Positions 15,327-42,596 of a DNA stretch of 64,000 bases are shown here, in pieces; position 1 is the first letter of the stretch, and every line of letters begins with the position of its first letter. Source of the DNA: Henckelia pumila (Eukaryota > Streptophyta > Magnoliopsida > Lamiales > Gesneriaceae); NCBI RefSeq assembly GCF_033568475.1, contig NC_133123.1:160781753-160845752 (forward strand), given 5' to 3'. Position numbers and translations under genes: made by a program. Under the pieces are notes generated by a model, which saw nothing but the letters and a program-made list of their open reading frames with translations, had not been told where the DNA came from and made no database searches.

Positions 15327-16710
15327 CTTCACTTATTTAAAAGAGATATTATTTTATTACTATATATTAACTAATGTATCTTCACGTAGTTCTTGTAAAA
15401 GTTTGTTATTAATCTATTAACTTGAAATAATTTGTTTCCCTCTTGTTTTGTCCTAAACCACCAATTCACCGAATATTGCTTAATTTTAATTGGTAAGATA
15501 AAAAGAATGAGATCAACTTTGATCCAAAACATTCAAAAAGGTGTAGTATGTACTTCTTAAGATTTGTTTCCAACTCAAAATTTCACATCATAAAAAATAA
15601 ATCAAATTAGCTTCTTACAATGTAAGTATCGGGTTTTTTTTTAATAAAATATTATAAAAATAATTTTTTTTAACAAACTATAAAAATGTGGCACTTTAAA
15701 AATCTATAATAAACCACTCTAAAAAAAAAATCTATAATAAACCGAGGTCCAAGGAATTGAAGCTCGGATTTATTTTTTTAAAAAAAATTTAAATTATTAA
15801 AATTATGGCCAAAATTTGACCTTAAAAAATAGAATTATGGATTTTTTATTTAAAAATTGTGATAATATATTTTTTATTTGTTTTACTTTTGTATTTCAGA
15901 TGATCATATCAATATATAATAGTAAATGATAATATACTTTAAATAAAAAAAAGATATTTATATTTCATAATTTTTTCAATATCCTCTCTTTCTTAATTTC
16001 ACCATAAAAACAAACGCTTTCATAGTATAGTTTAAACTTTAAAGGGATATAGCTGTTTATTTTAAATTTTATGCAATAATCACAATTATTTATTTGTTTG
16101 GTACGTAGAAAATCATTTCACTATTGGATATATATCTTTAAAAATGAATATTTATTTGATATTAGAAATTAAATTGCTATAAAAAATAATTTCATATAAA
16201 CTCAAATTGAAAAACAAATACTTACAATAATGACACTGATTTTAAAAATTTATGAGGAAAAAAAATTCATCCGATTAAGAGAATCGTTTACCAATAAAAA
16301 AATTCGTTGCTTAATAAATTTATATTTTTATTTATTTTGAAATACTTTATATAAAAAAATGAGAATATATAGAAATTATTAAAAAATAAATATTAAAACA
16401 TGCAAATAATTAAAATAATATCTCGACATATTGGAAAATTGTGTTCAAAAAACCCCTAACAAAATTGTTTTTATTTTTTAGAAAATACTTATTAGAAAAA
16501 ATTTCCAACTTAAAACATATTGTATTACAATATTATGGGTGCAAATTTTTTGAACAAAACATTGGGTCCAGAAGATGTCGGACCCAAATTTTGTTGAGAT
16601 AAGAACGAAATGCAATTCGAGTGGGAATTGATATTTTAGTATAAAAAGTAATAATTTAATATTTGCTGATTATTCGTCTCAAACGGATGAGAGAAAGTGC
16701 TAAAGATGCA
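14983..16710. other. AT-rich DNA with a (TA)n run, no gene
   Basis: Contains an uninterrupted TA microsatellite at about 15279-15321 and long A- and T-rich stretches. No protein or RNA gene could be supported. Confidence 0.6.
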
Positions 16711-17274
16711 AGAGAACATAGACTCTCCCGAAAAAAGGTATGTAAAATCAATTTCTTTCTATATAAAAAAAATTGACGTAGGGAAAAAGATCAAAAGGAT
16801 AAAAGCAGTCACTACAAACAAATTTTCTATATTAATTGCTTACTGCAAAATTAATTTCTTTTATATAAAAAAATTGACGTTGGGGGAAAGATAAAAAAGA
16901 CAAAAACAGCCACCCCAAACAAATCTCCTACATTAATTGCTCACTGCAAAATGAATTCCTTGTATATAAAAGAAATTGACGTATGAGAAAAGATCAAAAG
17001 GACAAAAGCAGTCACCCCAAACAAATTCCCTACATTAATTGCTCACTGCAAAATTAATTTATCGTATATAAAAGAAATTGATGTTGGGGGAAAGATCAAA
17101 AGGACAAAAACAGCCACCCCAAACAAATCCCATACATTAATTGCTAACTGCAAAATGAATTCCTTGTATATAAAAAAATTGATATAGGGGAAAAGATAAA
17201 AAAAACAAAACAAAAGCAGCCACCCTAAACAAATCTCCTACATTAATTGCTAACTGCAAAATGAATTTCTAGTT
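16711..17274 (+). repeat. Minisatellite array 0 (about 5-6 units)
   Basis: First array, not preceded by a gene copy but by the leader phrase gaacatagactctccc. Its units vary (gatatagggg, gacgtatgag), and it ends aatgaatttctagttcag. Confidence 0.85.
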
Positions 17275-17530
17275 CAGTTTATTTGTTAATGCTTAATTTT
17301 GATTCAAATTAAAATCGAAGTTTATGAAATGTCACAATATTTCATTAAACTTGATGACAACCTTATTTATTGATTGTGACATTCTTAAATACATGTAGTA
17401 CTATGTTGTATAATTTGCAGTGAGCAGTTAATGTAGGGTATTTGTATGGGGTGGCTGTTTTTGGTCTTTGATAAAGTTTGACAGCTTTATTTTTTGATTG
17501 TGACATGCTTCGTCCACAAATGAGATATAT
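17275..17530 (+). repeat. Module spacer with inverted minisatellite unit and leader
   Basis: Representative of the spacers between modules. The tail gtttatttgttaatgct is followed by two related stretches around cttatttattgattgtgac and tttattttttgattgtgac. Between them lies tttgcagtgagcagttaatg... near 17417-17475, the reverse complement of part of the 102-bp unit. Equivalent inverted pieces lie near 19317, 20951, 23215, 24458, 26165, 28927, 30520 and 32143. Confidence 0.85.
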
Positions 17531-18200
17531 ATGGGGGGACTAGAGCTCGAACATAGACTCTCCCAACTTCTCTGTATTCACCATCCTCTATTTCACGTTG
17601 CTTCTTATCCATTGCTTCATTTCATCATGCAGAACAGAGACCAATTACAATATGAATTTTTGAGTGAATTCATTAAACTTCGATTCACGGTAGCTCGAAT
17701 GAATTTTTGTCTTTCGGAATATCTATTCGAAACAAGAAACCAATGGGGCTATGGTTCTTGTACGTTCGTTGGTTGTGTCACTGTCGTAGAGATGCTCTAT
17801 CGCATGTTCAATAAGGAGGTTGATGGTTGGATAAACCGTTTTATTTCGATGTTCAGGATGTGTATGATAATCTTTTTAAACTACCTAACAATGAAGACAA
17901 TAATCATCTTCTTGATGTGAAGGGCGAAAATGGATTTCAAGTAGGTACCGTATTGGATTTTGAAGTCGAATATGGATTCCTACCTAGCAGCAGATGTTCG
18001 GCTCCTCTCGAGAGGATTCTTTTATCGGAGTTCAACAATTAGTAAAAATATCAACTATAAACTTTATTATTTGGCACGCACCTAACACATTTTTTCAATT
18101 TGTAGCTAACAAGAAGATACAAAATTGGTTCGTACGACAGCATATCACGAAAGCAAACATTCAAAACGGCTGGAATCTATCCTATAGTTGCAAAGATTAA
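17531..18200 (+). pseudogene. Papain-like fragment, copy 1 (frameshifted)
   Basis: Exon 1 reads from an in-frame upstream ATG (17531) or the module ATG (17627). It includes NQWGYGSCTFVGC, where Gln, five residues and Cys match the spacing of the papain oxyanion Gln and catalytic Cys. A one-base loss near 17828 (gttggataaa for gctgggataaa) shifts the frame; the correct frame continues from about 17827 to 18042 with GFQVGTVLDFEVEYGF. The intron-like stretch is 18042-18105. Exon 2 runs on to about 18200, where the minisatellite starts. Confidence 0.6.
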
Positions 18201-18204
18201 AAGG

Positions 18205-19171
18205 ACAAAAGCAGCCAAGGACAAAAGCAGTCACCCCAAACAAATCCTTTACATTAATTGCTCGCTTCAAAATGAATTCCTTGTATATAAAAGAAATTGA
18301 CGTAGTGAAAAGATCAAAAGAACAAAAGCAGTCATCGCAAACAAATTCCCTACATTAATTGCTCACTTTAAAATGAATTCCTTGTATATAAAAGAAATTA
18401 ACGTTGAAGAAAAGATCAAAAGGACAAAAGCTGTCACTCCAAACAAGTCTCCTACATTAATTGCTCACTGCAAAATAAATTTCTTGTATATAACAGAAAT
18501 TGAAGTAGGGGAAAAAATCAAAAGAAGAAAAGCAGCTACCCCAAACAAATCCTCTACATTAATTGCTCACTGCAAAATGAATTCCTTGTATATAAAAGAA
18601 ATTAACGTTAGGCAAAAGATCAAAAGAACAAAATCAATCACCCCTAGGGGTGTAAACGAGCCGAGCTACTCGTGAGCAACTCGCGAGTAGCTCGGTCAAA
18701 GCTCGATCGAGCTCGATTTGACCGAGCTCGAGCTCGAGCTACTCACAATCGAGCTCGAGTCAAGCTTTGAAACTATGTGATCGAGTAGCTCGCGAGCTAC
18801 TCGATAAGCCACATATATATATTAAAAAATAATATAAATATATATATATAAAAATATAATATATATAATATAATATTATATTTATATATTAATTTATTTA
18901 TTATATTTATATATTTATTTATTTTATAATATATATAATATAATATAATATTATATTTATTTATTAATATATTAATATATTTTAATTTATATATATATAA
19001 TATAAAAGCTAAAGCTCGAGCTCGAGTACTCGAACTACAACCGAGCTCGAGCTCATATTTTACTACTCGATCGAGCTCGAGTAGTGTGCTACTCGAGCTC
19101 GGATCGACTCGATAACACCCCTAGTCACCTCAAACAAATTCCCTACATTAATTGTTCACTGCAAAATGAAT
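18205..19171 (+). repeat. Minisatellite array 1, interrupted by an hAT MITE
   Basis: About six units. The fifth is split at the cacccc / cacctc target by the element at 18645-19123. The frame 18373-18675 runs through three units before entering the transposon. Confidence 0.85.
18645..19123. mobile_element. hAT-type MITE with GAGCTCGAG-rich arms
   Basis: 479 bp with ends taggggtgt and acaccccta, flanked by an 8-bp imperfect target duplication (atcacccc at 18637-18644, gtcacctc at 19124-19131). The arms consist of ctcgagctcgagct-like words, and the centre (18830-19000) is almost pure A/T. No coding sequence. Confidence 0.85.
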
Positions 19172-19433
19172 TCCTAGTTCAAATTATTTTTTAATGTTTC
19201 ATCCTGATTCAAATTAAACTGAGTTGATGGAATGTCACAATATTCCATTAAACTTGATGACAACCTTATTTCTTGATTGTGACATTCATAAATAAATGTA
19301 GTACTACGTTGTACAATTTGAAAAGAGCAAATAATGTAGGGTATTTGTTTGAGGTGACTGATTTTGGTCTTTGATAAAGTTTGACAACCTTATTTCTTGA
19401 TTGTGACATGTTTCGTCCATAAATGAGATATAT

Positions 19434-19452
19434 GGGGGGGGGGGGGGGGGGG
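19434..19452. repeat. Run of 19 G in the leader of copy 2
   Basis: Other modules have four to seven G at this place (atatatgggggg). Replication slippage or an assembly artefact would explain the expansion. Confidence 0.9.
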
Positions 19453-19540
19453 ACTAGAGCTCGAGTATAGACTCTCTCCTCCTCTTTGTCTTCACCATCC
19501 TCTATTCCACGTCGCTTCTTATTCATCGCTCCATTTCATC

Positions 19541-20115
19541 ATGCAGAACAGAGACCAATTACAATATGAATTTGTGAGTGAATTCACTAAGCTTGGATTC
19601 ACGGTGGCTCGAATGAATTTTGGTCTTTCGAAATATCTATCTGAAACAAGAGACCAATGGGGCTATGGTTCTTGTACGTTCGTTGCCTGTATCACTGTCG
19701 TAGACATGCTCTATCGGATGTTCAATAAGGAGGTTGATGACCGGGATAAAAATTTTTATTTTGATGTTCAGAATGTGTATGATAATATTTTTAAACTACC
19801 TAACTATGAATACAATGCTCATCTGCTTGATGTGAAGGGCAAAAATAGATGTTAAGTAGGTACCGTATGTGATTTTGTAGTGGAATACAGATTCCTACCT
19901 AGCAGCAGATTTGTGGCTCCTCTTGAGAGGAATCTTTTATCGGAGTTCAACAATCAGGTAAAAATCTCAACAATGAACTTTATTATTTGGCACGCAACTA
20001 ATACATTTTTTTAATTCGTAGCCAACAAGAAGATACAAAATAGGTTTTTACGACAACATATCACGAAAGCAAACATTCAAAACGGCAGGAACCTATCCTA
20101 TAGTTGCAGAGATCA
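19541..20115 (+). pseudogene. Papain-like fragment, copy 2 (nonsense codon)
   Basis: Exon 1 19541-19957 with RDQWGYGSCTFVAC. An in-frame taa ends it at 19855, in the part that reads CQVG in other copies. Splice ends are both intact (cag|gtaaaa and cgtag), defining a 64-bp intron at 19958-20021. Exon 2 is 20022 to about 20115. This copy best shows the ancestral exon-intron structure. Confidence 0.6.
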
Positions 20116-20806
20116 AAAGGAAAAAAGTAGTCAAGGACAAAAGCAGTCACCCCAAACAAATCCACTACATTAATTGTTCACTTCAAAATGAATTCCTTGT
20201 ATATAAAAGAAATTGACGTAGGAAAAAATCAAAAGGACAAAACCAGCCACCCCAAACAAATTCCCTATATTAATTGCTCATTGCAAAATGAAATCCTTGT
20301 ATATAAAAGAAATTGACATTGGGGGAAAGATCAAAAAGACAAAAGCAGCCACTAAAACAAATCTCCTACATTAATTGCTCACTGCAAAATGAATTCATTG
20401 TATATAAAGGAAAATGACGTAGAGAAAGATCAAAAGGACAAAAGCAGTCATGCCAAAGAAATTCCCTACATTAATTGCTTACTAGAAAATAAATTCCTTG
20501 TGTATAAAAAAAATTGACGCCGGGGGAATGATCAAAAGGACAAAAGCAGCCACCCCAAACAAATCCTCTACATTAATTGCTCAATACAAAATGAATTCCT
20601 TATATATAAAAGAAATTGACGTATGAGAAAAAATCAAAAGGACAAAAGCAGCCTCCCCAAACAAATACTCTACATTAATTTCTCACTGCAAAATAAATTT
20701 CTTGTATATAAAAGAAATTGACGTTGGAGGAAAGATCAAAAGGACAAAAACAGTCACCCCAAACAAATTCCCTACATTAATTGCTCACTGCAAAATGAAT
20801 TCCTTG
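20116..20806 (+). repeat. Minisatellite array 2 (about 7 units)
   Basis: Begins with the partial duplication aaaagtagtcaaggacaaaa and ends with gaattccttgttcagtttat. Most units here carry small indels, so no frame crosses more than one or two of them. Confidence 0.85.
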
Positions 20807-21031
20807 TTCAGTTTATTTTTTAATGCTTCAGTTTGATTCAAATTAAAATCGGAGTTGATGGAATGTCACAATATTTCATTAAAATTGATGACAGCCTTAT
20901 TTCTTGATTGCGGAATTCTTAAATACATGTAGTACTACATTGTACAATTTGCAGTGAGCAGTTAATGTAGGATATTTGTATGGGGTGGCTGATTTTGGTC
21001 TTTGATAAATATTGATAGCTTTATTTCTTGA

Positions 21032-21735
21032 TTGTGGCTTGTTTCGTCAACAAATGAGATATATATGGTGGGACTAGAGTTCGAGCATAGACTTTCCCCT
21101 CCTCGCTTTCTTCACCATCCTGCATTTCACATTGCTTCTTATTCATCGCTCCATTTCATCATGCAGAACAGAGACCAATTACAATCTGAATTTGTGAGTG
21201 AATTCACTAAGCTTGGATTCGTGGTGGCTCGAATAAATTTTTGTATTTCGGAATATCTATCCGAAACAAGAGACCAATGGGTTATGGTTCTTGTACGTTC
21301 GTTGGATGTGTCATTGTCATAGAGATGCTATATCGGATGTTCAATAAGGAGGTTGATGGCTGGGATAAAATGTTTTATTTCAATGTTCAGGATGTGTATG
21401 ATAATCTTTTTAAATTACCTAATTATGAAGACAATGCTCATCTTCTTGATGTGAAGAGCGAAAATGGATGTCAAGTAGGTACCGTATTGGATTTTGAAGT
21501 CGAATATGGATTCCTACCTAGCTGCAGATGTTCGGCTCCTCTCGAGAGGAATCTTTTACCGGAGTTCAATAATCAGTAAATATCTCAACTATGAACTTTA
21601 TTATTTGGCACGCACCTAACAAATTTTTTCAATTTGTAGCTAACAAGAAGATACAAAATAGGTTTTTACGAAAGCATATCACGAAAACAAACATTCAAAA
21701 CGGCTGGAACCTATCCTATATATAGTTGCAAAGAT
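21032..21735 (+). pseudogene. Papain-like fragment, copy 3 (frameshifted)
   Basis: Module ATG at 21161. The loss of bases at caatgggttatgg (others caatggggctatgg) near 21280 splits exon 1 into frames 21032-21322 and 21241-21579. The second half keeps GCQVGTVLDFEVEYGF. The donor is reduced to cagtaaat and the acceptor is intact (tttgtag, 21633-21639). Confidence 0.58.
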
Positions 21736-21749
21736 CAAAAGGACAAAAA

Positions 21750-21995
21750 AAAAACCAAGGACAAAAGCAGGAACTCCAAACAAATCCCCTACATTAATTG
21801 ATTACTGCAAAATTAATTTTTTGTATATAAAAGAAATTGATGCATGAGAAAAGATCAAAAGGACAAAAAGCAGCCACCCCAAATAAATCCCTACATTAAT
21901 TGGTCATTGCAAAATTAATTCCTTGTATATAAAAGAAATTGACGTTGGGAAAAGATCAAAAAGAAAACGCAGCCACCCCAAATAAATCCCTACAT
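21750..21995 (+). repeat. Minisatellite array 3a (2-3 units)
   Basis: Short array. The last unit breaks off at ccctacattta, directly followed by intron sequence of another module, which points to recombination. Confidence 0.75.
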
Positions 21996-22130
21996 TTATT
22001 ATTTGACACGCACCTAACACATTTTTTCAATTCGTAGCCAACAAGAAGATACAAAATAGGTTATTACGACAACATATCACAAAAGCAAACATTCAAAATG
22101 GCTGAAACCTATCCTACAGTTGCAAAGATC
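21996..22130 (+). pseudogene. Isolated intron plus exon 2 of the papain-like module
   Basis: Starts inside the intron (ttattatttgacacgcacct), contains the acceptor cgtag and the exon 2 sequence up to gttgcaaagatcaaaagg, and has no exon 1. It is a recombination remnant. Confidence 0.7.
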
Positions 22131-22320
22131 AAAAGGACAAAAGCAGCCAAGTACAAAAGCATCTACCCCAATCAAATCCCCTACCTTAATGGCTAACTGA
22201 AAAATGAATTCCTTGTATATAAAAGAAATTTATGTAGGGGGAAAGATCAAAAAGACCAAAGCAGCCACCCCAAAAAAATCTCCTACTCAATTGCTAACTA
22301 CAAAATGAATTCCTTGTACA
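22131..22320 (+). repeat. Minisatellite array 3b (about 2 units)
   Basis: Ends abruptly at aatgaattccttgtaca, where exon 1 sequence of the next fragment begins in the middle. Confidence 0.75.
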
Positions 22321-22685
22321 ACGTTTTATTTCGATGTTCAGGATGTGTATGATAATCTTTTTAAACTACCAACTATGAAGACAATGCTCATCTGCTTGAT
22401 GTGAAGGGCAAAAATGGATGTCAAGTAGGTATCGTATTAGAATTTGAAGTCGAATATGGATTCCTACCTAGCAGCAGATGTTCGGCTCCTTTCGAGAGGA
22501 TTCTTTTATCGGAGTTCAACAATCAGTAAAAATATCAACTATAAACTTATTATTTGGCATGCACCTAACATATTTTTTCAATTCGTAGCCAACAAGAAGA
22601 TACAAAATAGATTCTTACGATAACATATCACGAAAACAAACATTCAAAACGGTTAGAACCTATCCTATAGTTGCAAAGATCAAAA
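22321..22685 (+). pseudogene. Papain-like fragment, copy 4 (5' truncated)
   Basis: Lacks the leader, the start codon and the Cys motif. It begins at cgttttatttcgatgttcag (FYFDVQ in other copies) and continues through CQVG, the intron and exon 2. The join to the preceding minisatellite unit is a deletion breakpoint. Confidence 0.6.
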
Positions 22686-23068
22686 GAACAAAAGCAGCCA
22701 AGGACAAAAGCAGCCACCCCAAACAAATCTCCTACATTAATTAATCACTACGAAATGAATTTCTTGTATATAAAAGAAATTGACGCATGAGAAAAGATCA
22801 AAAGGACAAAAGCAGCCACCCCAAAGAAATTTTCTATATTAATTGCTCACTGCAAAATGAATTTCTTGTATATAAAAAAAAATTGACTTAGGAGAAAAGA
22901 TCAAAAGAACAAAAGCAGTCACCCCAAACAATACATTAATTGCTCACTGCAAAATGAATTCCTTGTATATAAAAGAAATTGACGTTGGAGGAAAGATCAA
23001 AAGGACAAAAACAGTCATCCCAAACAAATTCCCTACAATAATTGCTCACTACAAAATGAATTCCTACT
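22686..23068 (+). repeat. Minisatellite array 4 (about 4 units)
   Basis: One unit is shortened at ccccaaacaatacattaatt. The array ends aatgaattcctactttagtt, where the usual tag stop is altered. Confidence 0.8.
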
Positions 23069-23319
23069 TTAGTTTATTTTTTAATGCTTCATCTTGATTC
23101 AAATTAAAATCGGAGTTGATGGAATATCACAATATTCCATTAAACTTGATGACAACCTTATTTCTTAATTGTGGCATTCTTAAATACATGTAATACTACG
23201 TTGTATAATTTGAAGTGAGCAGTTAATGTAGGGTATTTGTTTGGGGTGACTGCTTTTGGTCATTGATAAAGTTTGCCAGCCTTATTTCTTGATTGTGGCA
23301 TGTTTCGTCTATAAATGAG

Positions 23320-23825
23320 ATATATATGTGGGACTAGAGCTCGAGCATAGACTCTCCCAACCTCTATGTATTCACTATCCTCCATTTCACGTTATTTCTT
23401 ATCCATTGCTACATTTCATCATGCAAAACAGAGACAAATTACAATATGAATTTGTGAGTGAATTCATTAAACTTCGATTCACGGTGGCTCGAATGAATTT
23501 TTGTCTTTCGGAATATCTATCCGAAACAAGAGACCTATGTGAAGGGTGAAAATGGATGTCAAGTAGGTACAATATTGGATTTTGAAGTCGAATACGGATT
23601 CCTACCTAGCAGAAGCTCGGCTCCTCTTGAGAGGAATTTTTTATCGGAGTTCAACAATTATGTAAAAATCTCAACTATGAACTTTATTATTTGGCACACA
23701 CCTAACACATTTTTTAATTCGTAGGCAACAAGAATATACAAAATAGGTTCTTTTGACAGCATATCACGAAAGAAAACATTCAAAACCGCTGTAACCTATC
23801 CTATAGTTGCAAAGATCAAAAGGAC
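23320..23825 (+). pseudogene. Papain-like fragment, copy 5 (internal deletion)
   Basis: Leader frame from 23328, module ATG 23421. After RD the sequence jumps from agagaccta to tgtgaagggtgaaaatgg near 23535, removing about 230 bases including the Cys motif. The rest keeps GCQVGTILDFEVEYGF. The donor reads tatgtaaaa and the acceptor is cgtag (23720-23724). Confidence 0.58.
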
Positions 23826-24305
23826 TAAAGCAGCCAAGGACAAAAGCAATCACCCCAAACAAATCCTTTACATTAATTGCTCACTGCAAAATGAATTCTT
23901 TGTATATAAAAGAAATTGACGTAGAGGAAATATCAAAAGAACAAAAGCAGCGACCCCAAACAAATCCCCTATATTAATTGCTCACTTCAAAATGAATTTC
24001 TTGTATAAAAAAGAAATTCACGTTGGGAGAATGATCAAAAGGATAAAAGTTGTCACCCCAAACAAATCCCCTACATTAATTGCTCACTGCAAAATGAATT
24101 CCTAGTATATAAAAGAAATTGACGTAGGGAAAAAGATCAAAAGAAGAAAAGCAGTCACCCCAAACAAATCCTCTACATTATTTGCTCACTGCAAAATGAA
24201 TTCCATGTATATAAAAGAAATTGACGTTGGGAAAAAAATCAAAAGGACAAAACAGTCACCCCAAACAAATTCCCTACATTAATTTCTCATCGAAAAATGA
24301 ATTCC
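23826..24305 (+). repeat. Minisatellite array 5 (about 5 units)
   Basis: Includes the sequence variants ttcacgttgggagaatg and gaagaaaagcagtc. It ends at the standard gaattcctagttcag. Confidence 0.85.
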
Positions 24306-24559
24306 TAGTTCAGTTTATATTTTAATGCTTCATCCTGATTCAAATTAAAATCTGAGTTGATGGAATGTCATAATATTCCAATAAACTTGATGACAACCTT
24401 ATTTCTTGATTGTGACATTCATAAATAAATGTAGTACTACGTTGTACAATTTGAAGTGAGCAGTTAATGTAGGGTATTCGTTTGAGGTAGCTGCTTCTGG
24501 TCTTTGATAATGGTTGACAACCTTATTTCTTGATTGTGAAATGTTTCGTCCATAAATGA

Positions 24560-25225
24560 GATATATATGGGGGAATAGAGCTCGAGTATAGACTCTCCCC
24601 TCCTCTCTATCTTCACCATCCTCCATTTCACGTTGCTTCTTATCCATCTCTTCATTTCATCATGCAGAACAGAGACCAATTACAATCTGAAATTGTGATT
24701 GAATTCACTAAGCTTGGATTCACGGTGGCTCGAATGAATTTTGGTCTTTCGGAATATCAATCCGAAACAAGAGACCAATGAGGATATGGTTCTTGCACGT
24801 TCGTTGCATGTGTCACTGTCGTAGACATACTCTATCGGATGTTCAATAAAGAGGTTGATGGTCGGGATAAAACTTTTTATTTTGATGTTCAGGATGTGTA
24901 TGATAATCTTTTTAAACTATCTAACTATGAATAATATGCTGATCTACTTGATGTGAAGGGCGAAAATAGATGTCAAGTATGTATCGTATTGGATTTTGTA
25001 GTAGAATACGAATTCCTACCTACCAGCATATTTTCTGCTCCTCTTGAAGAGGAATCTTTTTATCGGAGTTCAACAATCAGGTAAAAATATCAACTATGAA
25101 CTTTATTATTTGGCACGCAACTAACACATTTTTTCAATTCGTATCCAACAAGAAGATACAAAATAGGTTCTTACGACATCATATCATGAAATCAAACATT
25201 CAAAACAGTTGGAACCTATCCTATA
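24560..25225 (+). pseudogene. Papain-like fragment, copy 6 (two nonsense codons, dead acceptor)
   Basis: ATG 24662. The Trp codon of the Cys motif is changed to tga near 24780, with a second stop taa near 24931 and an extra base at cttgaagaggaat. The donor cag|gtaaaa is intact at 25081, but the acceptor reads cgtat instead of cgtag. Nearly identical to copy 8, its duplicate. Confidence 0.6.
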
Positions 25226-26017
25226 GTTGCAAAGATCAAAAGAACAAAAGCAGCCACCCCAAACAAATCTTCAACATTAATTGCTCACTTCAAAATGAAT
25301 TCCTTGTATATCAAAGAAATTGACGTAGGGAAAAGATCAAAAGGACAAAAGCAGCCACACCAAACAAATTCCCTACATTTATTGTTCACTGCAAAATGAA
25401 ATCCTTGTATATAAAAAAAATTGACGTTGGGGGAAAGATCAAAAGGACAAAAGCAGTCACCCAAAAAAATCCCCTACATTAATTGTTCACTGCAAAATAA
25501 ATTTCTTGTATATAAAGAAAATTGACGTAAGGAAAAGTTCAAAAGAACAAAAGCAGTCACGCCAAAGAAATTTCCTACATTAATTGCTCACTGGAAAATG
25601 AATTCCTTGTATATAAAAGAAATTGACGCTGGGAGAAGGATCAAAAGGACAAAAGCAGTCACCCCAAACAAATCTCCTACATTAATTGCTCACTACAAAA
25701 TGAATTTCTTATATATAAAAGAAATTGACGTAGGGGAAAAGATCAAAAGGACAAAATCAGCCACCCCAAACAAATACTCTACATTAATTGCTCACTTCAA
25801 AATGAATTCCTTGTATATAAAAGAAATTGACGTTGGGGGAAAGATCAAAAGGACAAAAGCAATCACCCCAAACAAATTTCCTACATTAATTGCTCACTGC
25901 AAAATGAATTCCTTGTATATAAAAGAAATTGACGTTGGGGAAAAGATCAAAAGGACAAAAGCAGTCACCCCAAACAAATTCCCTACATTAATTGCTCACT
26001 GCAAAATGAATTCCTAG
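25226..26017 (+). repeat. Minisatellite array 6 (about 8 units) with a four-unit open frame
   Basis: Longest array. The last four units form an uninterrupted ATG-to-TAG frame (25598-26017, 139 aa) of 34-residue repeats containing KMNSLYIKEIDVG and IKRTKAVTPNK. Exon 2 of copy 6 enters the array in the same frame for more than one unit before a one-base loss. Confidence 0.85.
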
Positions 26018-26242
26018 TTCAGTTTATTTTTTAATGGTTCAGTTTGATTCAAATTATTGTCGGAGTTGATGGAATGTCCTAATATTTCATTAAAATTGAT
26101 GACAACCTTATTTCTTGATTGCGGCATTTTTAAATACATGTAGTACTATGTTGTACAATTTGAAGTGAACAGTTAATATAGGGTATTTGTATGGGATGAC
26201 TGCTTTTGGTCTTTGATAAATATTGACTACTTTATTTCTTGA

Positions 26243-26945
26243 TTGTGGCATGTTTCGTCCACAAATGAGATATATAAGGTAGGACTAGAGCTCGAGCATA
26301 GACTTTCCCCTCCCCTCTTTCTTCACCATCCTCAATTTCACATCGCTTCTTATTCATCGCTTCATTTCATCATGCAGAACAGAGACAAATTACAATCTGA
26401 ATTTGTGAGTGAATTAACTAAGCTTGGATTCACGGTTACTAGAATGAATTTTTGTATTTCGGAATATCTATCCGAAACAAGATACCAATGGGCTATGGTT
26501 CTTGTACGTTCGTTGGCTGTGTCATTGTCGTAGAGATGCTCTATCGGATGTTCAATAAGGAGGTTGATGGCTGGGATAAAACGACTTATTTTGATATTCA
26601 GGATGTGTATAATAATCTTTTTAAACTACCTAACTATTAAGACAATGCCCATCTGCTTGATATGAAGGGCGAAAATGGATGTCAAGTAGGTACCGTATTG
26701 GATTTGAAAGTCGAATATGGATTCCTAACTAGCAGCAGATGTCGAGTTCCTCTCGAGAGAAATCTTTTATCGGAGTTCAACAATCAGTAAAAAATCTCAA
26801 TTATGAACTTAATTATTTGGCACGCACCTAACACATTTTTTTAATTCGTAGCCAACAAAATATACAAAATAGGTTCTTACGACAGCATATCACGAAAAAA
26901 AAACATTCAAAATGGCTGGAACCTATCTTATAGTTGCAAAGATCA
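26243..26945 (+). pseudogene. Papain-like fragment, copy 7 (frameshifted)
   Basis: ATG 26372. Loss of bases at caatgggctatgg near 26489 breaks the frame (26243-26533, then 26452-26640), and taa follows YLPNY at about 26638. The acceptor cgtag is present. The copy is duplicated as copy 9. Confidence 0.58.
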
Positions 26946-27436
26946 AAAGGACAAAAGCAGTCACTCCAAAAAAATCCCTACTTTAATTGATTACTGCAAA
27001 ATGAATTTCTTGTATATAAAAAAAATTGAGGGATGAGAAAAGATCAAAAGGACAAAAGCAGCCACCCCAAATAAATTTCCTACATTAATTGGTCACTGCA
27101 AAATTAATTCCTTGTATATAAAAGAAATTGACGTTGGGGAAAAGATCAAAAGGACAAACGCATCCACCCCGAAAAAATTCCCTACATTAATTATTCATTG
27201 CAAAATGAATTCCTTATATATAAAAAAATTGACGTTGGGTGAAAGATCAAAAGGATAAAAACAGTCACCCAAACAAATTCCCTACATTAATTGCTCACTA
27301 CAAAATTAATTTCTTTTATATAAAAGAAATTGACGTTTTGGAAAAGATAAAAAATACAAAAGCAGCCACCCCAAACAATTCCCTACATTAATTGTTCACT
27401 GCAAAATGAATTTCTTGTATATAAAAAAAATTGACG
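26946..27436 (+). repeat. Minisatellite array 7 ending in a duplication junction
   Basis: About six units. The last stops inside ttgacgt and continues directly as gggaatagagctcgagtat, the leader of copy 8, so the tail and inverted spacer are missing here. Confidence 0.85.
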
Positions 27437-28100
27437 TGGGAATAGAGCTCGAGTATAGACTCTCCCCTCCTCTCTATCTTCACCATCCTCCATTTCACGT
27501 CGCTTCTTATCCATCGCTCCATTTCATCATGCAGAACAGAGACCAATTACAATCTGAAATTGTGATTGAATTCACTAAGCTTGGATTCACGGTGGCTCGA
27601 ATGAATTTTGGTCTTTCGGAATATCTATCCGAAACAAAAGACCAATGGGGATATGGTTCTTGCACGTTCGTTGCATGTGTCACTGTCGTAGACATACTCT
27701 ATCGGATGTTCAATAAAGAGATTGATGGTCGGGATAAAACTTTTTATTTTGATGTTCAGGATGTGTATGATAATCTTTTTAAACTATCTAACTATGAATA
27801 ATATGCTGATCTACTTGATGTGAAGGGCGAAAATAGATGTCAAGTATGTACCGTATTGGATTTTGTAGTGGAATACGAATTCCTACCTACCAGCATATTT
27901 TCTGCTCCTCTTGAAGAGGAATCTTTTTATCGGAGTTCAACAATCAGGTAAAAATATCAACTATGAACTTTATTATTTGGCACGCAACTAACACATTTTT
28001 TCAATTCGTATCCAACAAGAAGATACAAAATAGGTTCTTACGACATCATATCATGAAATCAAACATTCAAAACGGTTGGAACCTATCCTATAGTTGCAAA
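27437..28100 (+). pseudogene. Papain-like fragment, copy 8
   Basis: ATG 27529; frame 27406-27801 passes through the Cys motif DQWGYGSCTFVAC before a taa at about 27799, in the part that is gaagac in other copies. The acceptor is mutated to cgtat as in copy 6. The Cys-containing part itself is undamaged. The upstream start of the open frame lies in minisatellite sequence because of the duplication junction. Confidence 0.6.
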
Positions 28101-28780
28101 GATCAAAAGAACAAAAGCAGCCACCCCAAACAAATCTTCAACATTAATTGCTCACTTCAAAATGAATTCCTTGTATATCAAAGAAATTGACGTAGGGAAA
28201 AGATCAAAAGGACAAAAGCAGCCACACCAAAAAAATTCCCTACATTTATTGTTCACTGCAAAATGAAATCCTTGTATATAAAAGAAATTGACGTTGGGGG
28301 AAAGATCAAAAGAACAAAAGCAGCCACCCAAAAAAATCCCCTACATTAATTGTTTACTGCAAAATAAATTTCTTGTATATAAAGAAAATTGACGTAAGAA
28401 AAATATCAAAAGGACAAAAGCAGAGACGCCAAAGAAATTCCCTACATTAATTGCTCACTGGAAAATGAATTCCTTGTATATAAAAGAAATTGACGCTGGG
28501 GGAAGGATCAAAAGGACAAAATCAGCCACCCCAAACAAATACTCTACATTAATTACTCACTGCATAATAAATTCCTTGTATATAAAAGAAATTGACGTTG
28601 TGGAAAAGATCAAAAGGACAAAAGCAGTCACCCCAAACAAATTTCCTACATTAATTGCTCACTGCAAAATGAATTTCTTGTATATAAAAAAAAATTGACG
28701 TTGGGGGAAAGATCAAAAGGACAAAAGCAGTCACCCCAAACAAATTCCCTACATTAATTGCTCACTGCAAAATGAATTCC
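28101..28780 (+). repeat. Minisatellite array 8 (about 7 units)
   Basis: Near-copy of array 6 with about one unit fewer; a two-unit open frame lies at 28465-28698. Confidence 0.85.
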
Positions 28781-29033
28781 TAGTTCAGTTTATTTTTTAA
28801 TTTTTCAGTTTGATTCAAATTAATGTCGGAGTTGATGTAATGTCCTAATATTTCATTAAAATTGATGACAACCTTATTTCTTGATTGCGGCATTCTTAAA
28901 TACATGTAATACTATGTTGTACAATTTGAAGTGAACAGTTAATATAGGGTATTTGTATGGGATTGCTGCTTTTGGTCTTTGATAAATATTGACTACTTTA
29001 TTTCTTGATTGTGGCATGTTTCGTCCACAAATG

Positions 29034-29704
29034 AGATATATAAGGTAGGACTAGAGCTCGAGCATAGACTTTCCCCTCCCCTCTTTCTTCACCATCCTCA
29101 ATTTCACATCGCTTCATTTCATCATGCAGAACAGAGACAAATTACAATCTGAATTTGTGAGTGAATTAACTAAGCTTGGATTCACGGTGACTCGAATGAA
29201 TTTTTGTATTTCGGAATATCTATCCGAAACAAGATACCAATGGGCTATGGTTCTTGTACGTTCGTTGGCTGTGTCATTGTCGTAGAAATGCTCTATCGGA
29301 TGTTCAATAAGGAGGTTGATGGCTGGGATAAAACGACTTATTTTGATGTTCAGGATGTGTATAATAATCTTTTTAAACTACCTAACTATGAAGACAATGT
29401 CCATTTGCTTGATATGAAGGGCGAAAATGGATGTCAAGTAGGTACCGTATTGGATTTGAAAGTCGAATATGGATTCCTAACTAGCAGCAGATGTCCAGCT
29501 CCTCTCGAGAGAAATCTTTTATCGGAGTTCAACAATCAGTAAAAAATCTCAATTATGAACTTAATTATTTGGCACGCACCTAACACATTTTTTTAATTCG
29601 TAGCCAACAAAAATATAAAAAATAGGTTCTTATGACAGCATATCATGAAAAACAAACATTCAAAATGGCTGGAACCTATCTTATAGTTGCAAAGATCAAA
29701 AGGA
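29034..29704 (+). pseudogene. Papain-like fragment, copy 9 (frameshifted)
   Basis: ATG 29124, with the same base loss at caatgggctatgg as copy 7, so the lesion predates the duplication. Frame 29204-29542 then reads from the Cys motif to FNNQ. The leader lost about ten bases (catcgcttcatttc for catcgcttcttattcatcgc). Confidence 0.6.
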
Positions 29705-30372
29705 CAAAAGCAGTCACTCCAAAAAAATCCCTACTTCAATTGATTACTGCAAAATGAATTTCTTGTATACAAAAAAAATTGACGTATGAGAAAAGATCAA
29801 AAGGACAAAAGCAGCCACCCCAAATAAATTTCCTACATTAATTGGTCACTGCAAAATTAATTCCTTGTATATAAAAGAAATTGACGTTGGGGAAAGATCA
29901 AAAGGACAAACGCAGCCACCCCGAAAAAATTCCCTACATTAATTGTTCATTGCAAAATGAATTCCTTATATATAAAAAAAATTGACGTTGGGTAAAAGAT
30001 CAAAAGGATAAAAACAGTCACCCAAACAAATTCCCTACATTAATTGCTCACTGCAAAATTAATTTTTTTTATATAAAAGAAATTGACGTTTTGGAAAAGA
30101 TAAAAAATACAAAAGCAGCCACCCTAAACAATTCCCTACATTAATTGTTCACTGCAAAATGAATTTCTTGTATATAAAAAAAATTGACGTTGGGAGAAAG
30201 ATCAAAAGGGTAAAAGCAACCATTGCAAACAAATCTCCTACATTAATTGCTCACTGCAAAATGAATTCCTTGTATATAAAAGAAATTGACGTTGGAGTAA
30301 AGATCAAAAGGACAAAAACAATCATCCCAAACAAATTTCCTACATTAATTGCTCACTACAAAATGAATTCCT
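29705..30372 (+). repeat. Minisatellite array 9 (about 7 units)
   Basis: Its first five units match array 7. The two units after 30186 lie beyond the duplicated block and end in gaattcctag. Confidence 0.85.
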
Positions 30373-30632
30373 AGTTTAGTTTATTTTTTAATGCTTCATC
30401 TTGATTCAAATTAAAATCGGAGTTGATGAAATGTCACAATATTCCATTAAACTTGATGACAACCTTATTTCTTGATTGTGGCACTCTTAAATACATGTAA
30501 TACTACGCTGTACAATTTGAAGTGAGCAGTTAATGTAGGGTATTGGTTTGGGGTGACTGCTTTTGGTCTTTGATAAAGTTTGTCAGCCTTATTTCTTGAT
30601 TTTGGCATGTTTCGTCCATAAATGAGATATAT

Positions 30633-31310
30633 ATGGGGGGACTAGAGCTCGAACATAGACTCTCCCAACTTCTATGTATTCACTATCCTCTATTTCACGT
30701 TGCTTCTTATCCATTACTCCATTTCATCATGCAGAACAGAGACCAATTACAATATGAATTTGTGAGTGAATTCATTAAACTTCGATTCACGGTGGCTCGA
30801 ATGAATTTTTGTCTTTCGGAATATCTATTCGAAACAAGAAACCAATGGGGCTATGGTTCTTGTACGTTCGTTGCCTGTGTCATTGTCGTAGAGATGCCCT
30901 TTCGGATGTTCAATAAAGAGGTTGATGGCCTGGATAAAACTTTTTATTTCGATGTTCAGGATGTGTTTGATAATCTTTTTAAACTACCTAACTATGAAGA
31001 CAATGCTCACCTGCTTGATGTGAAAGGCAAAATTGGATGTCAATTAGGTACCGTATTGGATTTTGAAGTGAATATGGATTCTTACCTAGCATCAAATGTT
31101 TGGCTCCTCTCGAGAGGAATCTTTTATCGGAGTTCAACAATCAGTAAAAATCTCAACTATGAACTTTATTATTTGGCACGCACCTAACACCATTTTTCAA
31201 TTCGTAGCCAACACGAAGATATAAAATAGGTTCTTACGACAGCATATCACGAAAAAAAAACATTCAAAACGGCTAGAACCTATCCTATTGTTGCAAAGAT
31301 CAGAAGGAAA
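30633..31310 (+). pseudogene. Papain-like fragment, copy 10 (late frameshift)
   Basis: Longest open frame of the family (30633-31187, 184 aa), starting at atggggggactagagctc in the leader and including NQWGYGSCTFVAC. A one-base loss near 31062 (gaagtgaatatgg for gaagtcgaatatgg) shifts the last part. Confidence 0.62.
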
Positions 31311-31996
31311 AAAGCAGCCAAGGGCAAAAGCAGCCACCCCAAACAAATCTCATACATTAATTGATCACTGCAAAATGAATTTCTTGTATATAAAAGAAAT
31401 TGACGTATGTGGAAAGATAAAAAGGACAAAAGCAGTCACCCCAAATAAATCCCCTACATTAATTGCTCACTGCAAATTGAATTTCTTGTATATAAAAGAA
31501 ATTGACGTTGGGGAAAAGATCAAAAGGACAAAAGCAGTCACCCAAAACAAATTCCCTACATTAATTGCTCACTGCAAAATGAATTCCTTGTATATAAAAG
31601 AAATTGACGTAGTGGAAAAGATCAAAAGGACAAAAGCAGTCACCCCAAACAAATCCCCTGCTTTAATTTCTCACTACAAAATGAATTTCTTGTATATAAA
31701 AGAAATTGACGTTGGAGAAAAGATCAAAAAGACAAAAGCAGTCACCCCAAAAAAATCACATACATTATTTTCTTCCTGCAAAATGAATTCCTTGTATATA
31801 AAAAAAATTAACGTAGGGGAAAAGATCAAAAAGACAAAATTAGACACCCAAACAAATACTCTACATTAATTGCTCACTGCAAAATGAATTCCTTATATAT
31901 AAAAGAAATTGACGTTGGAGAAAAGATCAAAATGAAAAAATCAGTCACCCCAAACAAATTCCCTACATTAATTGCTCACTGCAAAATGAATTCCTT
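31288..31996 (+). repeat. Minisatellite array 10 (about 7 units) with a long open frame
   Basis: A single frame (31288-31869) stays open through more than five consecutive 34-codon units, the longest coding-like stretch of the minisatellite. It has no ATG in exon 2 and would depend on read-through from the preceding exon or on an internal ATG at 31375. Confidence 0.8.
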
Positions 31997-32229
31997 GTTC
32001 AGTTTATTTTTTAAAGCTTCATCTTGATTCAAATTAAAATCGGAGTTGATGGAATGTCACAATATTCCATTAAACTTGATGACAACCTTATTTCTTGATT
32101 GTGACATCCTTTAATACATGTAGTACTACGTTGTACAATTTGAAGTGAGCAGTTAATGTAGGGTATTTGTTTGGGGTGGCTGCTTTTGGTCTTTGATAAA
32201 GTTTTCCAGCCTTATTTCTTGATTGTGGC

Positions 32230-32925
32230 ATGTTTTGTCCATAAATGAGATATATATGGGGGACTAAAGCTCGAGCATAGACTCTCCCAACCTCTCTGTA
32301 TTCACCATCCTTCATTTCACGTTGCTTCTTATTCATCGCTCCATTTCATCATGCAGAACATAGATCAATTACAATCTGAATTTGTGAATGAATTCATTAA
32401 GCTTCGATTCACAGTGGCTCGAACAAATTTTTGTCTTTCGGAATATCTATCCGAAAGAAGAGACCAATGGGGATATGGTTCTTGTACGTTTGTTGACTGT
32501 GTCATTATCGTAGAAATGCTCTATCGGATGTTCAATAAAGAGGTTGATGGCCGGGATAAAACTTTTTATTTCGATGTTCGGGATGTGTATGATAATCTTT
32601 TTAAACTAACTAACTATGAAGACAATGCTCATATGCTTGATGTGAATGGCGAAAATGGATGTCAAGTAGGTATCGTATTGGATTTTGAAGTCGAATACGA
32701 ATTCCTACCTAGCAGCAGATGCTCGGCTCCTCTTGAGAGGAATCTTTTATCGGAGTTCAACAATCAGATAAAAATCTCAACTATGAACTTTATTATTTGA
32801 CACGCACCTAACACATTTTTTCGATTTGTAGCCAACAAGTAGATACAAAATATGTTCTTACGATAGCATATCACGAAAGCAAACATTCAAAACGGCTGGA
32901 ACCTATCCTACAGTTGCAAAGATCA
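32230..32925 (+). pseudogene. Papain-like fragment, copy 11 (intact exon 1, damaged donor)
   Basis: Frame 32351-32800 covers all of exon 1 without a stop: RRDQWGYGSCTFVDC, FYFDVRDVYDN, GCQVGIVLDFEVEYEF. The splice donor is changed from caggtaaaa to cagataaaa near 32768, so the frame runs into the intron and stops at tga. Least damaged copy. The catalytic-type Cys is present, but the first Cys and the Trp of the usual CGSCW box are Tyr and Thr. Confidence 0.6.
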
Positions 32926-33504
32926 AAAGGACAAATGCAGCCATGGACAAAATCAGCCACCCCAAACAAATTCCCTACATTAATTACTAACTGCGAAATG
33001 AATTCCTCGTATATAAAAGAAATTGATGTAGGGGAAAAGATCAAAAATGCAAAAGCAGCCAACCCAAACAAATCTTCTACATTAATTGCTCACTGCAAAA
33101 TGAATTCCTTGTATATAAAAGAAATTGACGTAGGGGAAAAGATCAAAAGGACGAAGAAGCCACCCCAAACAAATCCCCTACAATAATTGCTCACTGCAAA
33201 ATGAATTCCTTGTATATAAAAGAAATTTAAGTTGGAGAAAAGATCAAAAGAACAAAAGCAGTCACCCAAAACAAATTCCCTACATTAATTGCTCACTGCA
33301 AAATGAATTCCTTGTATATAAAAGAAATTGACGTAGTGGAAAAGATCAAAAGGACAAAAGCAGTCACCCCAAACAAATCCCCTGCTTTAATTTCTCACTA
33401 CAAAATGAATTTCTTGTATATAAAATAAATTGACGTAGGAGGAAAGATCAAAAGGACAAAATCAGCCACCCCAAAAAAATCACCTACATTAATTGCTCAC
33501 TGCA
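32926..33504 (+). repeat. Minisatellite array 11 (about 6 units), cut at its right end
   Basis: A two-unit frame lies at 32914-33186. Two consecutive units (33255-33415) match 31540-31700 of array 10 almost exactly, including the rare cctgctttaatttctcac, so unequal exchange occurred. The array stops in ctgca, followed by the LTR remnant. Confidence 0.85.
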
Positions 33505-35327
33505 TAGGAACTGTAGTGACTAGAACTGTGATCACCTACTAATCAGAAGCTTTAAGCATGTAATTAAATAATTAAATAATCTTAATCAGAGATAACTGCG
33601 AAAACTTAAATAGCTAAATACCAGTATGATAAAACTTAGTGGCTGACCCTGCAATTCAGCTTTGGTCACCATCCAATCTCTAGATCTCTAGGAGAATTAT
33701 CTGCAACTACCCCGTCGAATGAGGTGTCCAGACAAACAAAAAACAACTGGACGTGAGCATAAAACTCTCAGTACGCTAGTACGGGTAAACATACGCTTAT
33801 GATGCATGCAAATAAAATGACTAGGTAATCATATCTGGGAAAATATACATAGGAACTCTTAAACATACTTAAAACACCTCAGTACATCATAAAAATTCAT
33901 TTAGAACTTAAAAACATGCAAGGAAGGATTTTGGGACAGAACCATCCTCGCTCGAGCGACAAGATTTCGCGCTCGAGTGAGACTTGTTCTAGAGTAGCAT
34001 ATTGCAGGCGCTCAAACTCTATTTTTCTATCCGAATTTGAAAATTTGATAGACATGAAAGTTGTGGATCTTTGTCTTGCATTTAAAATAACGGTGGTTTC
34101 ACCCCAATTGGAATTTTCAGTAAAATGTTATGCTCATTCTTCCAAGATGGGTCGGTGCAGGAAATTCAAAACAATTGATGCACTTTGGGGCAATTTTGCC
34201 AAACATCCAGAACGATTTGGACAAAACTCAAAACATGAAAGTTGTATATATATGAACTAGCTTTCAAATAAAATTGGCCTCATCTCATTTGGATTAGTAC
34301 ATCAGCCTTAATACACAAAATTGTAACGAGTGTCGCTAATCCATAACAACCCATCACATGTAACATTTCAAAGTTTTAACTCAAATTAACTCAATACTTC
34401 AAAATCATGATATTTTATACTAATATTGTTATAGACTTTGAATAAAACATTCTTTTATAAGTTCAATAACCCATAAAAACTTAAAAGAAACATGAATCTC
34501 TCAAATCAATTCAAGAACACGACAAGAACAACTTATGATTCACGATCTCATAAAATTCATAACTTAATGTCTTGAGTTTCTTGAAAATCATGCACACATA
34601 TCTCAACATACATAATTTCATATCAAAGTAATTATACATTGAATGGTGGTTTAAAAACATTTAAAATACTTTCCTTAACCATAGACGGAGTTGATCCGGA
34701 TTCTTGGCAACGAGCTAACCACGAAAAAGAACAAGATTTGGAATGCTTGGATTTGCTTAAGACCTTGAGGAACCGTATGAAAAACAAGGGAGTAAGATAA
34801 TAAAGAATGAGATTGAGAGGGAAAAATATATGAGGCGTGTGGGGGAGATGGGGGAGAAGTCAAACAAGGGGACAAGTGATGAATGGTGTGGGGATAGGGT
34901 TGGTTAAGGGTAATTATCAGAATTTAATACATATCGTGTGTCGATTACTTAAAACACAGTCTAACCAACATACCTTGAACCGAATTATAAAATTTTTACT
35001 CTCGACTCTTACACTATAACCATATGAATATTATACTTAAAACACTCATAAAAATATCCTCTATCACCTCGTTCTTAGGCCTCGTCCCGTGAGTCCAACA
35101 TCAAACTCGACCTGAAATCATCAAATTGAAAGAAAACGTTAAAACAAAACATGCATAATATAAGATCTCATAAAATAAAAATAACTTTTAAATCGTTAAC
35201 TCAACACAGTGAAAATATTTAAATAACAACAACCTTTAAATCATAAATAATTAAAATAAATATCTTAAAATTCATTTAAACTCTTTTATTAAATCAAAAT
35301 AGATTTATGGATATTCCGGGTATTACA
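33505..35327 (-). mobile_element. Gypsy-type LTR remnant, reverse orientation
   Basis: On the minus strand it begins tgtaatacccggaatatcc, a common start of long plant Gypsy LTRs. Toward the other end, gagcataaaactctcagtac (33754) resembles the stem seen at 12005 in the 3.4 kb LTR. A self-complementary pair, gctcgagcgacaagatttcg and cgctcgagtgag, lies near 33951-33983. The open frame 33916-34260 has no recognisable domain. No matching target duplication was found, so the left end is probably truncated. Confidence 0.55.
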
Positions 35328-35949
35328 ATCAGAGACCATGAAAAACTAAGGTGACCATTAGTGACTACCAACAATCATGCAAAACTATGATGATCATTAG
35401 AGACCATCAACAATGACTATGCAACCATTACAATGTCGGACGACCATTAGACAACTAAGATGATCATATAGGCCATTAGCGGACATGTGACCATTATAAC
35501 GCTGGACGACCACCGGTGATCATATTCGCATATAATATTTGTCGTGGGCATCCTGCATAAACAACAAAATCAATGTTAAGAATATTTCAATTTTTTTTGG
35601 CAAAAAAATTATAGGCTAGGAGACCATCATATAACTACGAGAGATCATTATAAAACTAAAGAGATTATCACGGCAAGGCTAGGAGGCCATTATATAACTA
35701 TAAGAGACCATTATAAAACTATAGAGACCATCCACGGCAAGGCTAGAGACCATAATATAACTATGAGATACCATTATAAAACTACAATAACCATCAACGA
35801 CGAGGCTAGGAGACCATCATATAACTATGAGAGACCATTATAAACTACGGAGACCATCCACGACAACCATGATATAATCATACCGATCATAGTACATAAC
35901 TACGGAACCATTACCTTAATACAAACAACCATTACATGCTATGGGAAAA
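35328..35949. repeat. GACCAT-rich repeat DNA with a 63-bp minisatellite
   Basis: Around 35612-35875 there are about four tandem copies (starts near 35614, 35677, 35741, 35804) of a 63-64 bp unit with ggctaggagaccatcatata and gagaccattataaaacta. Related agaccat words continue on the far side of the Copia insertion (44541-44740). Non-coding. Confidence 0.75.
35945..35949. repeat. Copia target-site duplication, left (gaaaa)
   Basis: Matches gaaaa at 44536-44540 exactly. Confidence 0.9.
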
Positions 35950-37624: not shown

Positions 37625-37626
37625 AG

Positions 37627-37639
37627 TGGTATCAGAGCC
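37627..37639 (+). other. Copia primer-binding site
   Basis: tggtatcagagcc, two bases after the LTR, is complementary to the initiator-methionine tRNA 3' end, the standard Copia primer. Confidence 0.93.
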
Positions 37640-37671
37640 ACACTTTTTGAAAAAATTTCAAAAGGTTCTAA

Positions 37672-38940: not shown

Positions 38941-39352
38941 AGCTAAAATGAGATCACCCCTACATGCTCTTATTGTTGTAAAATTGGTCATGTTAGACAT
39001 AAATGTAGATCTTTAAGATTTTAATATGATCAAAAGAGCTATATGAAATGGAGGCCTAAGAGTACTTAACAACTCATCAGTCGGTATTATGAGATCATGA
39101 TCTAAGAGAGTTCATCATAGATCGGTTTAAACTGTCTTGACTTGCGACTGGTTTTCCTGATGAACGCTGCTTTGTCCAAGGAAATAGGATTTTAAAGAGG
39201 TCATAGCCCTACCTACTACTGGGAGCACTCTTGGAAAATGGCGATGATGTTGCTATGAGAGACTGAACTCTTAGAAGTCCATTTTATATATCTCTTTTTT
39301 AACACTGTGGACCCAAAAGAACTAAAGGGTTCCAAAATCAATTCTTGCAGGG

Positions 39353-42300: not shown

Positions 42301-42388
42301 AAATCAAATTGCCGATATTTTTACAAAACCACTAGATGAAAATACTTTTATTCATTTGCGTGGTGAACTTGGCATGATTGAGTTGTAA
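39353..42388 (+). pseudogene. pol: Copia pol (protease, integrase, reverse transcriptase, RNase H), broken
   Basis: Protease active site DSG at 39390-39398; integrase zinc region (HRRLGH...CDACQLGKH) about 39768-39910, followed by the D, D, E core (LDLCGPS, SDHGTEF, NGVVERKN). Reverse transcriptase begins about 40910 ([17 protein letters not shown]) and has YVDD at 41457-41468. RNase H follows (YCDADFGG, ALSTTEAEY) and ends at 42388. Breaks: tga 39489, taa 39699, tga 40428, tga 41082, tga 41394, a frameshift around 41695, tag 42107. No functional polyprotein can be made. Confidence 0.93.
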
Positions 42389-42596
42389 TCGCATGTGGAC
42401 ATAAATTGAAATTTAATGTCATATTATGGGGGAGCTTAATAATAAAATTCAAGGAACTTAATTTTGGATAATACAAATTAATTGTATTTATTCAAAGTTA
42501 TCAAGCTCACATTTTATGTGAAATTTATGTGTTGCATTTTAGAAATCATATTTTAATTCTCTTGTTTTGCATTTACTTTCCAGTCTTTTTTATTAT

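Follow-up and report, generated by a model that had tools for sequence, protein, structure and literature searches.

In the genome of Henckelia pumila, a window of 64,000 nucleotides (C4:160781753-160845752, where C4, like C1 and C2 in the coordinates below, is a contig) contains an array of protease gene pieces and minisatellite blocks at window positions 16711-33504, hereafter array 1. It is very probable that this array is a gene-fragment macrosatellite, in which part of a papain-family gene became fused to a 102-bp minisatellite, was copied together with it as a composite, and decayed under little or no selection, in an order of events that we infer. The array was studied in one assembly, and genome searches covered the 885 Mb and 133 contigs of that assembly. 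Array 1 is real and neatly built, but it is most likely the outcome of commonplace genome decay and not a novel type of element.

To detect modules, a gene piece, a satellite unit and a spacer were each used as BLAST queries on the window. This identified 12 gene pieces, all on the plus strand and arranged head to tail (the original prediction had counted about eleven in the same direction), alternating with 13 arrays of the 102-bp minisatellite, which stands at both ends of array 1. The 11 pieces other than the query are 86.7-91.2% identical to it. Nine pieces, including the query, are almost complete, with 676-685 of the 685 query bases aligned; the piece at 23331-23838 is internally deleted, and those at 21995-22151 and 22324-22702 are 5′-truncated. 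A full module reads satellite, tail and spacer (~260 bp), leader, exon 1 (consensus 417 bp), intron (consensus 64 bp, GT..AG), exon 2 and satellite, with nine spacers interspersed among the gene pieces. The prediction that each module has all of these parts holds for most of them, but not for M9, which is without tail and spacer, or for M4 and M5, which have no 5′ part; in addition, satellite array S1 carries an insert. Similarly, the shared start codons that it described are found in 10 of the 12 pieces, which have a common leader and the same ATG, and are missing from the two 5′-truncated ones, and what it called an inverted spacer proved to be part of a satellite unit, 46-64 bp long, in inverted orientation. 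Tandem Repeats Finder (TRF) finds 12 of the 13 satellite arrays, with a summed copy number of ~65; the 56 units used for statistics were excised anchor to anchor. The leader-to-leader distance varies from 1157 to 2260 bp because satellite copy number, the S1 insert, the partial pieces and the missing spacer differ among modules. The features of array 1 (satellite arrays S0 to S12, gene modules M1 to M12) and its left flank are as follows.

16555..16771, plus strand: left flank of array 1; paralogous to C4:161018 (L058 527-729; 75%) and C1:98493 (L059; 83%)
16744..17270, plus strand: satellite array S0; 102-bp unit, ~5 copies
17274..18219, plus strand: module M1; tail/spacer, leader, exon 1, intron and exon 2; frameshifted
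18217..19176, plus strand: satellite array S1; interrupted by an inserted element at ~18645-19125
19177..20135, plus strand: module M2; in-frame stop at codon 105
20133..20807, plus strand: satellite array S2; 6.7 copies
20808..21748, plus strand: module M3; frameshifted
21749..22000, plus strand: satellite array S3
21995..22151, plus strand: partial piece M4; only intron and exon 2
22149..22320, plus strand: satellite array S4; found by BLAST only, absent from the TRF list
22324..22702, plus strand: partial piece M5; 3′ half of exon 1 through exon 2
22700..23066, plus strand: satellite array S5
23071..23838, plus strand: module M6; internal deletion in exon 1
23836..24309, plus strand: satellite array S6
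24310..25256, plus strand: module M7; stop at codon 40, intron acceptor AG lost
25231..26018, plus strand: satellite array S7; 7.7 copies
26019..26963, plus strand: module M8; frameshifted
26938..27437, plus strand: satellite array S8; ends abruptly at the duplication junction 27437/27438
27439..28123, plus strand: module M9; no tail or spacer; 98.5% copy of M7
28098..28784, plus strand: satellite array S9
28785..29716, plus strand: module M10; gene part a 98.1% copy of M8
29691..30377, plus strand: satellite array S10
30378..31322, plus strand: module M11; 1-base deletion in exon 1
31307..31998, plus strand: satellite array S11
31999..32943, plus strand: module M12; exon 1 open, intron donor GT changed to AT
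32945..33504, plus strand: satellite array S12; stops mid-unit against unrelated sequence
32141..32200, minus strand: inverted partial satellite unit, example from the M12 spacer; 84% over 64 bp to the last S11 unit

The element at ~18645-19125 in S1 has inverted ends (CTAGGGGTGTAAACGAGCC...) and, as judged by eye, a possible 5-bp target duplication, TCACC. To the left of array 1, window 15159-15482 matches L058 1258-1542, which at that locus lies on the opposite side of the satellite unit, a sign of a rearranged or duplicated flank. To the right, window 33510-35330 is an LTR-like (long terminal repeat) stretch by eye (TGTAGTGAC...TATTACA), which may have truncated the right end of the array.

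In all 12 pieces exon 2 meets the satellite at the same point, in eight of them (all except M7-M10) with an extra 16-bp repeat, and the join between satellite and tail coincides in all nine modules that have one. These common breakpoints indicate that the fusion arose once and was then copied as a composite unit. The youngest part of the array records such copying directly: block M7-M8 was copied to M9-M10, the gene parts of which are 98.5% and 98.1% identical to their sources, compared with 86.8-93.1% for the remaining pairs in array 1. The duplicated blocks are 94.3-96.5% alike over longer stretches that include satellite, and in S9 and S10 alike, units one to four are closest to the units in register with them in S7 and S8. 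Judged by eye, the satellite unit at 27437 is followed directly by the M9 leader, the two meeting at GGG, and tail and spacer are absent; the newest resolved growth step is a 2867-bp tandem duplication with a non-homologous joint at GGG. In addition, S11 and S12 have in common a 174-bp exact repeat (at 31528 and 33252), which suggests recent exchange or conversion. Thus, the composite expansion of gene fragment and minisatellite that was originally predicted is borne out by the common breakpoints and by a duplicated block with in-register satellite units. As to the proposed mechanism, unequal exchange or replication-based copying, the tandem duplication at GGG is the only growth step resolved, and homologous exchange is suggested by the S11/S12 repeat. 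The term higher-order repeat, in its alpha-satellite sense, fits M7-M8 versus M9-M10 but is not shown for the older modules, the units of which do not correspond by position.

A whole-genome search with module parts, which had been proposed as a check, gave 20 DNA matches for the gene part: 13 in array 1, four in a sister array on the same contig (array 2), one in a short piece between the two, and two in a hairpin locus on contig C1. Satellite arrays were found only in array 1. Because the gene-part matches cluster in this way, chance is excluded as their source. With regard to assembly error, the ~11% divergence among modules and the non-homologous junction of the recent block are not what would be expected from a retained haplotype in this one assembly.

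The gene fragment is assigned, from sequence resemblance, to exons 1 and 2 of a papain-family (C1) gene, the third exon of which was not found. The module consensus protein itself has no Pfam C1 match, and the assignment proceeds through a relative, L044, exon 1 of which is 30% identical to the module protein in the alignment. With its exons joined by eye, L044 matches Peptidase_C1 (PF00112) at 2.9e-8, above the cut-off, and PDB cathepsins at 2e-5; six other typed pieces of relatives gave no Pfam match at E up to 1. The description of the fragment as protease-like is upheld by this link. In family C1 the catalytic Cys sits in a QG..GSC motif; the module consensus contains DQWGYGSCTF, and many relatives read VRNQG..GSC, so that the catalytic Cys motif is recognizable. 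Exon 3 of several relatives carries His/Asn-like regions (HAVLVVG..QN-like stretches), and four exon-3 queries (E up to 0.05) gave no match to the window or to L009-L011 (array 2 with its surroundings), while the same queries do match L033, L034 and a cluster at 1.3 Mb on C4. As the exon with the catalytic His and Asn was not found, the fragment in its present form is not expected to have C1 protease activity. With 150 of 236 candidates scored, the broad family extends at ~27-43% identity over several genome clusters. A PDB search with the fragment returned a single match, to an antibody chain (E 0.92), which is regarded as chance.

No copy in array 1 looks intact. Ten copies retain a start: in eight of these, exon 1 runs into a premature stop, mostly after a frameshift, M11 has the 1-base deletion and M12 has lost its splice donor; the intron acceptor AG is gone in M9 as well as in M7. 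Pairwise divergence is much alike in all parts of the module, namely 0.093 in the tail/spacer, 0.108 in the inverted unit, 0.126 in the rest of the spacer, 0.129 in the leader, 0.107 in exon 1, 0.095 in the intron and 0.101 in exon 2 (eight modules; the recent copies M9 and M10 and the fragments M4 and M5 were omitted). From these patterns, the copies are most likely decaying under little or no selection, and would have no present use to the plant.

The origin of the composite can be approached through loci that contain its parts in other combinations. A satellite dimer gave 53 genome matches. Two lie in array-2 spacers and two more at C4:161018897 and C1:98493450, one per locus; all others belong to array 1. 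Outside array 1 the satellite was thus found in two forms only: each of two paralogous loci has one diverged unit, and the array-2 spacers have part of a unit in inverted orientation. The two single-unit loci, L058 (C4:161018) and L059 (C1:98493), are 91% alike over 1.8 kb and contain the unit once each. On one side the unit adjoins sequence like the left flank of array 1, with a dispersed insert resembling a miniature inverted-repeat transposable element (MITE) between them; on the other side it runs into the reverse complement of spacer and tail. A stretch of ~60 bp in the satellite unit matches part of the spacer in inverted orientation. A genome search with the spacer found 76 matches, none outside arrays 1 and 2 and the L058/L059 loci. 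Array 2 (L010 3741-7392; C4:160.967-160.971 Mb) lies ~152 kb from array 1, has a period of 1216 bp, and shares spacer, leader and exons with array 1; an ordinary 3′ part stands where the satellite would be. Since array 2 is without satellite, the satellite was probably added later.

A feasible model may be that the spacer/gene unit came first and that, at the site of array 1, it became linked to a copy of the single-unit segment in opposite orientation. The 102-bp sequence would then have multiplied in tandem as a minisatellite, and exon 2 would have become fused at one point to this sequence, whereby the family C1 gene lost its third exon. The composite of satellite, tail, spacer, leader, exon 1, intron and exon 2 may then have been copied tandemly, at least once via duplication at a short chance match, and the copies may later have decayed.

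Several observations weigh against this macrosatellite model. Position-matched satellite units were looked for among the old modules and were not seen: the distance between first units is 0.146, as is that between first and other units, and the mean distance within arrays (0.135) is close to that between arrays (0.140). The nearest neighbor of a unit lies in the same array for 2 of 56 units, compared with a shuffled mean of 4.2, and for 4 of 44 versus 4.0 without S9 and S10. Because of this lack of positional and within-array likeness, the recent block is the only part for which there is direct evidence that multi-unit arrays were copied jointly. In addition, the pooled ratio of nonsynonymous to synonymous polymorphism (pN/pS) in exon 1 is 0.60 (nine modules), and the consensus sequences of arrays 1 and 2 differ with a corresponding substitution ratio (dN/dS) of 0.51; these ratios suggest some constraint in the past, which may have preceded duplication. 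A close, intact parent gene was also sought without success among the 150 of 236 candidates scored, in which the best relatives outside arrays 1 and 2 and the nearby short piece reach 36-43%.

Other explanations of the array have been weighed against the same data. The 102-bp repeat might be coding, which would make array 1 a family of tandem repeat-protein genes, since one frame of the unit is open over all 34 codons with a TAG end, continues exon 2 without stops (IKRTKAATPNKSPTLIAHCKMNSLYIKEIDVGEK), and stays open across 160-210 codons in some satellite arrays. However, departures from the consensus by codon position 1/2/3 are 5.9/11.0/9.2%, which is not a pattern of coding constraint, merely 11 of the 56 units measure 102 bp, and the repeat is absent from the sister array. 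On the codon-position and unit-length tests a coding minisatellite was rejected, and we regard it as the least credible of the explanations considered. The combination of gene-fragment capture, minisatellite and inverted unit resembles Pack-MULE, Helitron or foldback elements, and a paralogous segment does exist on another contig; the module could therefore be a transposable element of such a type that captured a protease fragment and bears tandem terminal repeats. Dispersal and orientation argue otherwise: the 20 matches of the gene part fall at three places on C4 and one on C1, the 76 spacer matches are confined to the two arrays and the L058/L059 loci, and the array-1 copies share one orientation, head to tail. 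A transposon origin is accordingly very unlikely, if marginally less so than a coding repeat.

It is also possible that array 1 is a source of RNA silencing, in which hairpins between satellite and inverted spacer unit, together with an inverted gene-fragment locus on contig C1, would direct small RNAs at the arrays. In all nine modules with a spacer, the last satellite unit and the inverted unit of the spacer are complementary over 46-64 bp at 78-88%, and window 31915-32215, from the sole module folded, gives -109.1 kcal/mol versus -58.3 (SD 5.0) for 100 shuffles (z -10.2). The locus at C1:98.434 Mb (L012 2765-4192) is a 1.43-kb inverted repeat with the same gene fragment on both arms, which are 72% alike; its core folds at -275.7 kcal/mol over 571 nt, a value without a shuffle control. 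With up to two mismatches, 62 of the 551 hairpin 21-mers match array 1 and 29 of 551 match array 2, compared with none in five other family sets. On the other hand, the inverted spacer unit is no better conserved than its surroundings (pi 0.108; 59% of 60-bp windows are equal or lower). Other family members are reached only at three mismatches and no more often than by a shuffled hairpin; as this is chance level, functional relatives would not be targets. Silencing from the satellite/spacer stem or from the contig C1 hairpin may thus occur, but we consider it improbable as the explanation of the array. The inverted spacer unit was separately considered as a conserved regulatory element and rejected, because its variability is no lower than that of the rest.

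Nested repeats recur in related clusters of the protease family. At C2:130.568-130.588 Mb (L041 and L042), modules of ~1.38 kb contain exons 1 and 2, exon 3 was not detected there, and a 36/72-bp minisatellite lies ~165-205 bp past exon 2 in 7 of 10 exon-2 pieces. Mean likeness among six C2 modules is 94.3% in the exons, 93.7% in the minisatellite part and 94.6% in the spacer; a search of array 1 with one copy of the C2 minisatellite gave no match (E up to 1). The tandem cluster at C4:1.312-1.342 Mb (L038-L040) consists of three-exon modules, most of which have a 193-203-bp nested repeat at the 5′ end of exon 1. No per-module nested repeat was seen in the array at C1:153.97 Mb or in array 2. 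These observations suggest that nested minisatellites recur in the family, against the background of a repeat-rich genome in which tandem repeats are common. It is tempting to speculate on a self-contained cycle, in which genes like those of peptidase family C1 repeatedly lose exon 3, gain a minisatellite after exon 2 and expand into tandem arrays of composite units, and small RNAs from the contig C1 hairpin silence arrays 1 and 2; we judge this scenario slightly less probable still than silencing by itself.

As a probable gene-fragment macrosatellite, array 1 has counterparts among known systems. Subrepeats of ribosomal DNA intergenic spacers are short repeats nested between tandem gene copies; array 1 resembles them in having short repeats in that position, but it is non-ribosomal and its modules are unhomogenized (~11% apart). 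Human macrosatellites such as D4Z4/DUX4 and RS447/USP17 consist of kilobase direct-tandem units, some with a gene per unit; RS447 units encode a protease, the deubiquitinase USP17, units of 3.0-6.6 kb are tabulated, and arrays vary between people (PMC3599962). Array 1 is likewise made of kilobase direct-tandem units with common breakpoints. It differs in that its units are 1.2-2.3 kb long and carry a truncated, broken gene, with a variable minisatellite within each, as seen in one assembly. The view that array 1 is unlike an ordinary satellite or tandem gene family needs qualification, since array 1 fits among gene-bearing macrosatellites. Through L044 the fragment belongs to the same family as the plant papain-like cysteine proteases covered, for example, in a soybean survey (PMC7659060), with exons 1 and 2 only. 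The inverted gene-fragment locus on contig C1, which matches the arrays, may be comparable to the system described in PMC10004981, from which it differs in its long arms (~0.7 kb). Among titles and abstract openings in the literature, none was found on array 1, and we do not claim that it is unpublished.

Three stages coexist in this genome, namely a single-copy unit (C4:161018, C1:98493), a satellite-free array (C4:160.97 Mb) and a composite array, and the birth of a minisatellite within a tandem gene array is thus readable stepwise in one genome. The parallel at C2:130.57 Mb suggests that truncated gene arrays are sites at which minisatellites originate, or at which they aid the growth of arrays.

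Elsewhere in the window, UDPGT, CASP-domain and copia-type reading frames are present. Those of the Copia-type retrotransposon, at window 36589-43850, are flanked by two stretches of 178-193-bp repeats.

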